Below, in pieces: positions 59,875 through 64,000 of a stretch of DNA of 64,000 bases. Position numbers and translations under genes: made by a program. Numbering within the stretch: position 1 is the stretch's first letter; every line of letters starts with the position of its first letter. The notes beneath the pieces are model-generated. The model was not told the DNA's origin. It saw nothing but the letters and a program-made list of their open reading frames with translations, and did not search any database. This stretch comes from Polynucleobacter sp. Latsch14-2 (GTDB taxonomy: Bacteria; Pseudomonadota; Gammaproteobacteria; Burkholderiales; Burkholderiaceae). The stretch is from positions 1 to 64,000 of the forward strand of contig NZ_JACVPL010000007.1 in NCBI RefSeq assembly GCF_018881925.1. The letters are read 5' to 3'.

Positions 59875-60574
59875 GTTTATGAAGCAGGCGAATAGTTTGG
59901 TGCTGAGTGCAAAGGATTTGGCTAAAACCTATGGTCATGGTTTGTCTGCAGTAGAAGTTCTCAAGGGTATTAACCTCGATGTTGCTCCATCGGAGAAGGT
60001 TGCCATTATTGGTTCATCTGGTTCAGGCAAAAGCACTTTGCTGCATCTCTTGGGCGGCTTGGATATACCAAGTGCTGGCTCAGTTGTTTTGGCTGGACTC
60101 AATCTGAATAACTTACCGGTTGCTAAATTAGACCAATTGCGCAATCAAAGTTTGGGTTTTATCTACCAATTTCATCATCTCTTAGACGAATTTAGTGCGC
60201 AAGAGAATGTGGCTTTGCCTTTGCGTATTCGTGGACTGAGTTATGAAGAGTCTATGGATAGGGCAAGCAAGATTCTGAAATCGGTTGGTTTAGCTGCTAG
60301 AGAACTACACACTCCTGGAGAGTTGTCTGGGGGCGAGCGTCAACGCGTTGCTGTAGCTCGAGCTTTGGTGGGTAATCCTGCTTGCGTTCTGGCGGACGAG
60401 CCAACGGGCAATCTCGATACAGAGACAGCTGACAGTGTGTTTGATTTAATGTTAGACGTAGCACGTGAACAGGGCACAGCCTTCGTAATCGTGACCCATG
60501 ATCCTATTCGCGCCAAACGTTGCGATCGTATTTTGCACTTAGAGCGCGGAATATTAAAGAACGTGGCTGCGTGA
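59867..60574 (+). CDS. lolD: Lipoprotein-releasing ABC transporter ATPase LolD
   Basis: ATP-binding subunit of the Lol transporter, 235 aa. Walker [19 protein letters not shown], signature [15 protein letters not shown] and Walker [12 protein letters not shown] are all intact. Its stop (TGA) overlaps the GTG start of tatD. Confidence 0.95.
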
Positions 60575-61422
60575 GTCTGTGTCAATCTTGGGTTGATACC
60601 CATTGCCATCTAGACGCACCTGAGTTTGAGAAAAACCTTTCCCAAGTGATTAATGCTGCAGCCCAGAATGGCGTTAAGGCAATTTTGCTGCCAACAGTGA
60701 AGGCTTCTGATTGCGACCATGTTAGAGCGCTTGCCTCCGAGTATGCTGAGAAAATTCCAGGTTTCGTTTATACGCTCGGTATTCATCCCCTGTATATCAA
60801 CCAGGCGCAAGAATCTGACATCACTACTTTGAAGCATCAAATAGAAGAATCTTTCGTTGATCCTCGCTTTGTTGGTATTGGCGAGATTGGTTTGGATTAC
60901 TTTGTTGAAGGTCTAGATCCGCGGCAGCAGGAATGGTTCTTTAATGCACAACTGGACCTAGCGGAGCAATATCAATTGCCGGTCGTCTTGCATGTACGTC
61001 GTTCCCAGGACGCTATTTTGAAGGCGTTACGCTCTAGAAAAATTCCCGGTGGAATAGCCCATGCATTTAATGGTAGCTTTCAGCAGGCAGAGCAATTTAT
61101 TGGGCTTGGGTTTAAGTTGGGATTTGGAGGCGCTGCTACATTCGAGCGCGCTTTGCAGATTCGTCGACTGTTAAAAGAATTACCCCTAGATAGCATTGTT
61201 ACTGAAACAGATGCGCCCGATATCCCCCCTGCATGGTTGCGTGAAGAGGGTATTGGTTTTAATGAGCCGGCATTCTTGCCTCGTATTGCTGCTGTATTAG
61301 CAGAGGTTCGCGGCGTCAGTAGTGATGAGTTTGCTATTGCTGTGTGGCGTAATGCCATGCATGTCTTACCCCGTTGGTCAGCATTACTAGCTGGTAATGC
61401 AAATCTCCACTTAACCTCCTAA
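60571..61422 (+). CDS. tatD: TatD-family metal-dependent hydrolase
   Basis: A 283-aa amidohydrolase-fold DNase-like enzyme. The start is GTG 60571, sharing bases with the lolD stop; a longer frame inside lolD is not used. Metal ligands: WVDTHCHLD near residue 9, [26 protein letters not shown] and ETDAPD. The comEC start follows 4 bp later, so the run is lolC-lolD-tatD-comEC. Confidence 0.92.
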
Positions 61423-61426
61423 GGTC

Positions 61427-62260
61427 TTGCGTTTAGCAATTGCGGCGTTTATCGCCGGGGGTTCGTTTCTGCTATTTTTACCCACAGTGCCTGACTATTG
61501 GTTGTCTGCAGCTATTTTTACGGTGGCCATTGCCCTACTCGGACTGCGCTTCTTTTCAAAGGCTACCAGCTCCCAGCATATATTCATCATCTTGCTTTGT
61601 GTGGCACTTGGTTTTGCTTGGAATGCAAAGTATGCAGACCACAGGTTGAAAAATATTCTCTCGCAAGAGTTGGAGGGACGGGAGTTGAGTATTGAAGGTC
61701 GAGTAGCTGCCTTGCCTCAAAGTAATTCAGCTGGGGCTAAGTTTGCCTTTGAGATTGAACATGTCTTATTAGGTGGTGATAGGATCGAGCAATTCCCCGA
61801 GAGAATTTATTTAAGCTGGCAGCCCGCTTGGAGAGATGCGCAAAAGATTCCGGAGGTGATTCCCGGACAACGTTGGGAGTTCAAGGTAAAACTAAAGCGT
61901 CCTTATGGCGCGCTCAATCCCTACGCTTTTGATTTCGAGCGCTGGTCCTTTCATCAAAACTTTGGTGCTAGTGGATCAGTTCGTTCAGGTGAGCTACTAC
62001 TTGACAGAGATATTGGCTTCATCGATTTTGAATTAGCTGTAGAGTATCAACGTTGGAAGTTGAGGAAAAAGATTCAGCGATTACTTCCAGAAGATGCAGC
62101 TTATAGCGGCGTGATTGTTGCCCTTGTAATGGGCGATCAAAATGCGATAAACCAAGATGATTGGCGAGTATTTAATGCCACTGGCATTGGGCATCTCATT
62201 TCAGTTAGGTATAAAATTTACCTATCATTAGAGGGAAACAGATATGCCAGTTGCCTATAG
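61427..62260 (+). pseudogene. comEC: comEC, N-terminal fragment truncated by a mobile element
   Basis: ComEC forms the inner-membrane DNA-uptake channel and normally has about 750-800 residues. Here only about 259 remain. They comprise several N-terminal membrane segments, the OB-like domain with PYGALNPYAFDFERW, and the start of the competence core INQDDWRVFNATGIGHLIS. The sequence then departs from the expected HLIS-[IV]-SGLHV into VRYKIYLSLEGNRYASCL and a stop. The start is TTG 61427 with TAAGGT before it. Channel function must be lost unless the element excises. Confidence 0.88.
62200..62224. other. Candidate attachment-site junction (attL) in comEC
   Basis: comEC-like sequence runs to about 62205-62209 (CTCATTTCAGTT) and then stops matching. 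Directly at the change lies a dyad TAGGTA-N7-TACCTA (62206-62211 and 62219-62224). Half-site dyads at the crossover are typical of serine recombinase sites. The exact core dinucleotide needs the other end. Confidence 0.6.
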
Positions 62261-63767
62261 TTACGCCCGCTTTAGCTCAGATAAGCAGAAGGATGGGGAT
62301 AGCCTCCGTCGCCAGCGTGATCTAGCTCTCCAGTTCATTGAACGTAATCCAGAGCTAGAGCTTGATCTGGACACCACGCTAAACCTTACTGATGAGGGTC
62401 TTAGTGCTTATAAGGGTGTTGCCCAGACTAAGGGCGCACTAGGTGCATTCATACGATTGGTGGAAGATAAGCAAATAGCATCTGGATCTTACCTGCTGGT
62501 TGAGGCCCTAGACAGGTTGAGCAGGCAGACGCCACGTCAAGCCTTTAACCAACTTAATACCCTAGTAGATTCTGGGATTGTTGTGGTTACGCTAACTGAC
62601 AACAAGATATACACCCGTGAGATATTGGACAGTGACCACGGAATGTCTTTGATCTTTGCCATCATGCTCATGGCTAGGGCACACGAAGAGTCTGTCACAA
62701 AAGGTCAGCGTATCAAAGCGGCATGGAGTAATAAGTTCGCCAAGATTAAAGATGGTGTGCAACTCACAGCTCGTGTACCTTTCTGGATCAATAAAGAGGA
62801 TAAAAGCAAGTCAATTCCTGATAAGGTTGCCATCGTTAAGGAAATCTTTGAGATGAGCGCTAAAGGTATTGGAGCGATGCGTATTGCGCAAGATTTAAAC
62901 GCTAATAAAAGACCAACCCCAAGCAAGCAATCCAAGAAGTGGGCGATTTCCAGCGTTAAGAAGGTGCTGGCGTCCGAGGCTGTATTGGGTACGTTGGTTA
63001 CGTCAGATGGAGGTAAACATGAAAAGTATTACCCTGCAATCATTGGTCAAAGACTTTGGAGTAAATCAAGAATTACTAGTCAGAGCTCTAAGACGGCTAG
63101 AAGTACGGTTGACGTTCATCCCTTGAGTGGGCTGATGTTCTGTAAGAGCTGTGGAGCAACAGCACAGCGTAGCGGTAAGACAGGAAGGGTGAGGCAGGAC
63201 GGCACGAAGAACAGCTGGAAAACATTAGTCTGTGCAAAATCCGTATCACACGCATCTAAATGCGAGTACCGATCCATTTCTTACGACAAGATACTACACT
63301 CAGTAATTATTGGGCTCGATCAGATGGCGGAATTTAGCCCGCAAGATGAGATCGGTAAACAGATACACACAAAAAGAAGTAGGGTGGAACAGTTACAGGA
63401 TTTGATTGATCTTGTTACTGCGCCTACAGATGGCAGACCCGTTAAGGTGACAGCAACAGCTAAAGCTAATTTATCAAAAATGTTTGTTGAATTAGATGGC
63501 TTGCGAAAAGAAATTGATGAACTAGTTGAGATTCGTAGGCCAATGAACCAAAGGTTAATAGAGGGTGCTAGAAAAGCTATCCTAAAGGGCGAAGTCAATA
63601 ATGCGCTAATGAGACAGGCAATTAAACGTAGTGAGATTGACTTTAAGAAAGCGCTATTAGATATTTATGGACACGATGGCAGCGCTATATCGGGGTTAGT
63701 TCTTAAAGACAGTGAGCAGCGTGAGAAGGATGAGGCAAAACGAGCTTATACATCGGTAAGGCGGTAA
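62244..63767 (+). CDS. Large serine recombinase (integrase)
   Basis: A 507-aa site-specific recombinase. The catalytic domain begins YSYARFSSDKQKDGDSLRRQ, with the nucleophilic Ser around residue 11, and has EALDRLSRQTPRQ. A recombinase DNA-binding domain runs about 165-270. A zinc ribbon (LMFCKSCGATA, then LVCAKS and KCEYR) lies at about 290-350, followed by a long helical, probably coiled-coil region. GAGGG before ATG 62244 is the ribosome site. It overlaps the comEC fragment by 17 bp and lies immediately inside the junction, as integrases usually do. Confidence 0.92.
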   Translation: MPVAYSYARFSSDKQKDGDSLRRQRDLALQFIERNPELELDLDTTLNLTDEGLSAYKGVAQTKGALGAFIRLVEDKQIASGSYLLVEALDRLSRQTPRQAFNQLNTLVDSGIVVVTLTDNKIYTREILDSDHGMSLIFAIMLMARAHEESVTKGQRIKAAWSNKFAKIKDGVQLTARVPFWINKEDKSKSIPDKVAIVKEIFEMSAKGIGAMRIAQDLNANKRPTPSKQSKKWAISSVKKVLASEAVLGTLVTSDGGKHEKYYPAIIGQRLWSKSRITSQSSKTARSTVDVHPLSGLMFCKSCGATAQRSGKTGRVRQDGTKNSWKTLVCAKSVSHASKCEYRSISYDKILHSVIIGLDQMAEFSPQDEIGKQIHTKRSRVEQLQDLIDLVTAPTDGRPVKVTATAKANLSKMFVELDGLRKEIDELVEIRRPMNQRLIEGARKAILKGEVNNALMRQAIKRSEIDFKKALLDIYGHDGSAISGLVLKDSEQREKDEAKRAYTSVRR

Positions 63768-64000
63768 ATGATTATTTCTTATTTTTTCGAGGGCAGATTT
63801 TCTCTGCAACTTACATAAGTATGCGTATGGTGTGAATTCCTCAATAAATACGTACTATTAGCTGTAACCTAAGAATTTGTGTTTAAAAGTGAATTATTTA
63901 GGGCGGGAACCGCGTTTTTGTTGTATTAGTATGTATGAGCGGTATTTTTTAATCAAGCTAAACCACTTTGGCCAGAAGTTGAAAGAAATACCTAAAAGCA
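63768..64000. other. AT-rich interior of the mobile element, no gene visible
   Basis: A 233-bp AT-rich stretch after the recombinase. It holds a short stem GCGG-GAA-CCGC at about 63904-63914 followed by GTTTTTG, which may be a terminator. I see no convincing reading frame before the window end. The element continues to the right. Confidence 0.5.

Follow-up and report, generated by a model that had tools for sequence, protein, structure and literature searches.

A lineage of Polynucleobacter serine recombinases that probably targets a conserved segment of comEC

A lineage of large serine recombinases in Polynucleobacter very probably recombines a palindromic attP with an attB inside comEC across a TC dinucleotide, splitting the gene and presumably blocking transformation in a way that would be reversible in frame. 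ComEC is the DNA-uptake channel and is needed for natural transformation. What emerges is a serine-integrase attachment site, mapped from its junctions, in a highly conserved comEC segment of a freshwater genus, with apparently recurrent insertion, and a natural system for testing if escape from removal by transformation is what draws mobile elements to competence genes. The window, i.e., the whole 64,000-nucleotide stretch analysed here, covers contig C48 (positions 1-64,000) of a genome labelled G000; the contig runs on to 108,890 bases. The relevant features are:

60520..61422, forward strand: tatD-family DNase gene (PF01026, E 5e-63, residues 25-282), host context directly 5′ of comEC
61427..62202, forward strand: 5′ part of comEC (DUF4131 part and the very start of the Competence domain), through the crossover dinucleotide; from PF13567 and tblastn
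62201..62202, forward strand: putative 2-bp crossover core TC, the first two bases of codon Ser263, at attL; from junction alignment and wobble counts
62203..62230, forward strand: right arm of the former attP, i.e., the left end of the element, an imperfect inverted repeat of the other end
62203..64000, forward strand: left part of the integrated element, which continues to C48:70725
62244..63767, forward strand: integrase of the element, a 507-aa large serine recombinase whose gene starts 41 bp behind the core
C48:70724-70725, outside the window: second copy of the core TC, at attR; from junction alignment
Beyond the window, after the integrase: primase-helicase, small proteins, an Adhesin_E-like protein, a DUF3427/NOV_C protein, then the comEC 3′ half

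A profile search matched PF13567 to residues 25-190 of the open reading frame at 61427-62260 (E 1e-33), and its similarity to uncut Polynucleobacter ComEC ends at residue 263-264 (tblastn, residues 1-264), the last 58 bases of the frame (62203-62260) belonging to the element rather than to comEC. The start at 61427 is a TTG predicted by the ORF caller, and the upstream tatD frame, which begins at the first possible start codon, probably overruns its true start. The first-pass annotation had proposed that comEC is cut by an integrated mobile element, and this is borne out, with a serine recombinase gene adjoining the point where the ComEC match stops. It placed the end of the fragment within one codon of the crossover position derived here, but gave the letters as GTGIGHLIS where the sequence reads ATGIGHLIS. 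The rest of comEC, which it expected to the right of the element and outside the window, is indeed located 8.5 kb rightward on the same contig (C48:70709-72418), open for 571 codons from C48:70709 and 75% identical to residues 258-828 of uncut ComEC. The break thus comes behind Ile262, leaving a C-terminal part of about 570 codons apart from the N-terminal one. It also runs through the Competence domain, whose first 22 profile positions are severed from the remainder: the single PF03772 match in this genome falls on the 3′ half and spans profile positions 23-264. A missing 3′ half or a full second comEC had been named as grounds for abandoning the proposal; the contig holds the former, and a PF03772 profile search of the genome (99.98% complete) found none of the latter.

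The gene next to the cut encodes a protein with the domain set and size of a large serine recombinase, i.e., Resolvase catalytic, Recombinase and zinc-ribbon domains in ~500 aa (PF00239, 4e-16; PF07508, 1.5e-14; PF13408, 2e-7; all above cut-offs), and it matches PHROG 95, an integrase family (5e-67). Its frame is full length, with all residues that are invariant among seven relatives kept. In 7/7 loci the integrase gene starts 39-42 bp behind the comEC cut and in the same direction.

We searched all 186 Polynucleobacter genomes for this integrase and inspected comEC fragments closely in 30 of them, namely 15 whose PF03772 matches were odd or double and 15 drawn from the 25 that lack such a match (G054, which has two, lay outside this set). 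Integrase matches occurred in 10/186 genomes, eight of them at 55% identity or more. The weak matches in G139 (E 4e-6) and G168 (2e-4), in whose loci no comEC was found, were left out of the count. The annotation had suggested looking in other Polynucleobacter genomes for the same insertion point: comEC is cut at the same codon in at least 8/186, the integrase adjoining the cut in seven, and given the 30 genomes inspected for fragments this number is a lower bound. In G000, G080, G094, G106, G151, G176 and G180, the 5′ part of comEC ends at residue 263-266 and the integrase follows directly. Thus, seven of the eight close integrase relatives sit directly behind one codon, in line with the suggestion that this conserved stretch is the integrase's natural target.

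The eighth close relative is a truncated integrase in G050 (L084 9390-11620; 94% identical to the G080 integrase over 335 aa), a genome in which no comEC match was found. It stands behind ATCTC/AATT (the slash marking the junction), and its left end, the only end located, closely resembles that of the comEC elements, pointing to an apparent use of a secondary site. The open reading frames on its two sides look, by eye, like the pieces of a single DUF849-like gene. The integrase family comprises a recombinase set with a putative core, a protein-coding attB and one apparent use of another site.

In the eighth cut genome, G111, the same codon is cut and the right end of the element is the same, yet a different sequence follows the left cut; no integrase match was found in this genome, in which the middle of the element is unassembled. 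At the end of its contig C3 (L086 5237-9015), other genes, including one for an SBF-family transporter and possibly forming an arsenic cluster, replace the integrase behind the cut. G111 may perhaps carry a locked-in element.

Both element ends lie on one contig in four genomes, where the element measures 5.2-15.1 kb. This rules out an assembly break, and it makes an assembly or binning artefact next to inconceivable: although in some metagenome-assembled members the element runs to the end of a contig (in the metagenome assemblies G151, G176 and G180, the right end is on another contig or was not found), G080 and G094 are single-contig genomes, G106 is an isolate, and the identical junction recurs in separate genomes. 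A simple transposon is likewise ruled out by the one fixed site, the serine integrase and ends that share only a short core region.

Several comparisons speak to whether these insertions descend from one event. Integrase identity between G180 and G176 is 98% (526 aa), whereas the comEC N-halves of these two genomes are 37% identical (251 aa), this strongest contrast resting on two metagenome assemblies. G000 and G180 share 88% identity in the primase and 97% in a fragment of the NOV_C protein, against 50% in the comEC C-halves. Similar elements in such divergent comEC genes would not be expected from inheritance of one insertion, and insertion looks recurrent and site-specific.

Outside the genus, a survey of 398 genomes of the family gave 31 integrase matches, four of them in Polynucleobacter and the other 27 at 46% identity or less. 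In 26 of the non-genus integrase loci, covered to no more than about 1500 bases on from the match, a tblastn search (E 0.01) using two ComEC proteins of Polynucleobacter found no comEC. A pattern-seeded scan of genome contigs returned four integrase relatives, all in genomes already counted. Among viral contigs, the pattern-seeded search yielded no confirmed relative of integrase, ComEC or primase, nor was the 22-base attR pattern matched. Of 50,697 phage records, the integrase has matches in 91 and the primase in 11, none reaching 60% identity.

The junctions allow the crossover to be placed because the wobble bases switch between attL and attR. At attL, codon Ser263 is TCA in 6/8 cut loci versus 2/30 uncut ones (p 0.00025), while Ile262 varies (ATT, ATC, ATA) as it does among uncut genes. 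At attR, Leu261 is TTA in 5/6 versus 1/30 uncut loci (p 0.00009) and Ile262 is ATC in 6/6 versus 10/30 (p 0.004), with the wobble base of Ser263 being variable; since the compared rows are related, all these p values are guides only. From this switch we infer that crossover occurs on the TC of codon 263, within ATGIGHLI/SISGLHV. In the window's element, the arm at 62203..62230 agrees with the other arm, taken as reverse complement, at 18 of 28 positions, a figure that 3/5000 shuffles reach. Across 5/5 elements (the arms of G180 being taken from two contigs) the inverted-repeat match covers 16-19/28 positions, with 0-3/5000 shuffles reaching it in each case. A simple site of this kind, a 2-bp core between palindromic arms, is what would be expected of a serine-integrase attP.

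In the mechanism that we propose, the recombinases would recognise an attB of ~50 bp inside comEC, in the stretch encoding ATGIGHLISISGLHVTM, and recombine the palindromic attP with it across the TC; the junctions are observed, the reaction is deduced from them. The target peptide is invariant in 30/30 uncut loci (the 30 best-scoring PF03772 matches in the genus, among them L023, which is shortened by a contig end). By nucleotide sequence, the 48-bp site ranks in about the top 10% of comEC windows and is not the most conserved one. Such a conserved target would give the element a site in many hosts. With the uptake channel no longer made whole, natural transformation would be off, as follows from the established role of ComEC, and its silencing may in turn shield the element from replacement by homologous element-free DNA.

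Excision, presumably with a directionality factor, would regenerate comEC in frame. Joining the flanks in silico gives an open frame of 828-830 codons, reading ...GIGHLISISGLHV..., in 4/4 loci with both sides on one contig. No directionality factor was identified. In principle, the arrangement would then resemble phage control of comK in Listeria, where excision restores competence.

The interrupted C halves show no decay. Between G094 and G106, both interrupted, dN/dS is 0.08 for the C half and 0.14 for the N half, as compared to a median of 0.07 (range 0.04-0.17; 32/60 sampled pairs with finite dS) for uncut genes, a control that covers the C half only. Either the insertions are recent, then, or comEC is regularly restored, and the data fit both. 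A dprA gene is present in 7/8 cut genomes, the exception being G180, in which no match was found.

Lack of decay might also be read as ComEC working as two proteins, with the C half starting at the element's TTG just before HLISISG. An in-frame TTG does stand directly before His260 at 6/6 attR junctions, and the C halves show no decay; the cut nevertheless separates the first 22 positions of the Competence profile from the rest (the genome's own match begins at 23), and we regard this reading as very unlikely. An improbable alternative, if less so, is that of a dead remnant, a one-off insertion that permanently inactivated comEC in the strain of the window. Its attL reads AGTT where the other elements have AATT, a changed base beside the core that makes the G000 copy only putatively mobile, and in G111 comEC is still cut though the genome lacks an integrase match. 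A remnant would, however, sit poorly with an integrase of full length that keeps its invariant residues, with two open comEC halves and with relatives in distant hosts.

More weight attaches to the possibility that comEC is a neutral harbour, used for its conserved motif and dispensable in some Polynucleobacter, so that the transformation block brings the element nothing; we consider this quite conceivable, although we lean against it. The Competence domain (PF03772) is found in 161/186 genomes of the genus (131/144 good ones) and goes without a match in 25 (13/144 good ones), some of which are incomplete assemblies and which include G151, one of the cut genomes, and G050. In addition, frame breaks or stops have broken up comEC in G031, G034, G036, G037 and G051 without the element. 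Given such breakage and absence, loss of transformation is possibly tolerated in the genus without benefit to the element. A sister element with the same backbone sits in an amino-acid permease gene (by reading of the protein), so competence genes are not the lineage's only targets. Against a neutral harbour, the domain is kept in those 161 genomes with uncut C-half dN/dS around 0.07, elements in competence genes are described as recurring across several lineages (PMC4774983), and the targets of serine recombinases are reported as enriched for competence genes (PMC10083194).

For the favoured reading, integration that would block transformation and could be reversed in frame, one could further envisage a switch coupled to competence, in which the comEC promoter drives the integrase and the onset of competence leads to exit of the element and restoration of the channel. 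Because the gap of 39-42 bp holds an attP arm and the ribosome-binding region, transcription of the integrase mainly from the comEC promoter is possible. A promoter-like site across the junction (62188-62217) and a terminator-like stem (62171-62191) count against such a switch, both near the level of shuffles, as are the overall counts of the promoter and terminator scans. We judge the coupled switch unlikely.

As to its cargo, the window's element measures 8523 bp from core to core and encodes a primase-helicase of 694 aa (PriCT_2 and AAA_25). No structural protein was recognised among its eight further open reading frames left once overlaps were removed (>=60 aa; 8/8 scanned with Pfam, 5/8 with PHROG). 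Small, with integrase and replication genes and no recognised structural gene, it has the make-up of a satellite; no TerS was recognised in it as a sign of packaging or helper exploitation, and we therefore call it satellite-like only. The G094 element carries a TerS-like protein (PHROG 309, 4e-8) with homologs in G106 and in contig C40 of G000. PADLOC, run on 7/8 further proteins of the window's element, indicated no clear defence system, the best matches being HmaA-type (2e-5, the DUF3427/NOV_C protein) and PDC-S02 (5e-4, a 95-aa protein).

Gene content varies between elements. That of G094 encodes an Mrr-type nuclease (PF04471), that of G106 RNase T/BRCT and DnaJ proteins, and that of G151 a D5-type primase and an ABC transporter; protein scans recognised no primase in the G080 element. 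Primases are 95-96% identical among the elements of G094, G106 and G000:C40. Across the 186 genomes, primases at least 50% identical to that of G094 occur only in G000 (two), G094, G106 and G180, and any primase match, mostly weak, in 35. The related element on C40 of G000 (about 53-60 kb, locus L085), inserted in the permease gene mentioned above, has a primase and a TerS-like protein 93-96% identical to their G094 counterparts, and a divergent integrase (about 46% identical). Judging from these sequences, exchange of the integrase on a common backbone may redirect an element. Beyond the att arm, more than 100 bp of the right end, including a G+C-rich stretch, look alike in G000, G106 and G111 despite different content:

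L087 110-290; L003 10550-10725; the right end of the G106 element in L079: shared right-end stretch

Integration of serine-recombinase elements into comEC is already known. Phi1207.3 is described as such an element, integrated at one dinucleotide inside streptococcal comEC (celB), given as GA (PMC4260502); the opposite strand reads TC. Import of DNA is reported to fail in cells whose comEC carries Tn1207.1 (PMC8321556). Despite sharing a serine recombinase in comEC, phi1207.3 is a 52-kb prophage of streptococci with three serine recombinases, whereas the Polynucleobacter elements measure 5-15 kb and reside in a betaproteobacterium. The Polynucleobacter site also differs from the streptococcal one. 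In the record of the related phi29854, comEC sequence stops at ...LLVTHAEV, and residue 618 of our ComEC is the last that it matches. The streptococcal cut thus lies about 350 codons downstream of the one described here, ruling out that the two sites are the same.

Other relatives in kind are more distant. The Variovorax prophage VAI-C_pp_2, whose integration site is listed as ComEC/Rec2 (PMC9658991), shares a betaproteobacterial host and the comEC target, but is entered at 42 kb, with another att sequence and an integrase of the tyrosine type. Elements in comK, comYC, comM and comFA, i.e., in other genes and with other integrases, are described as recurrent and as removing or lowering transformation, within a conflict model (PMC4774983, PMC11472951); a macrolide-resistance cassette is the only insertion for which the available portions of these two papers give comEC as the target. 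PICI-type satellites, as defined in PMC13376191, resemble the present elements in small size, integrase, primase-helicase and, in the sister elements, a TerS-like protein, and differ from the window's element in its serine integrase within a host coding gene and its lack of a recognised TerS. Among the open-licence papers listed by literature searches, none names this comEC site in its title or abstract opening, and an earlier report is possible.

Five gut phage records of Ca. Heliusvirales (L123-L127: PV036436, PV036418, PV036442, PV036435 and PV036424) carry a comEC 3′ part at the end of the record. In the three that were checked by a motif scan, no comEC 5′ part was seen at the opposite end. 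The comEC parts begin at the TGLH/TGVH of the motif that is cut in Polynucleobacter, no more than about 10 bases from the core there, a proximity that would fit a possible convergent targeting by the two groups of elements. Each record encodes three serine recombinases, and four share CAGACGGG at this position, where L123 has AAACAGG.
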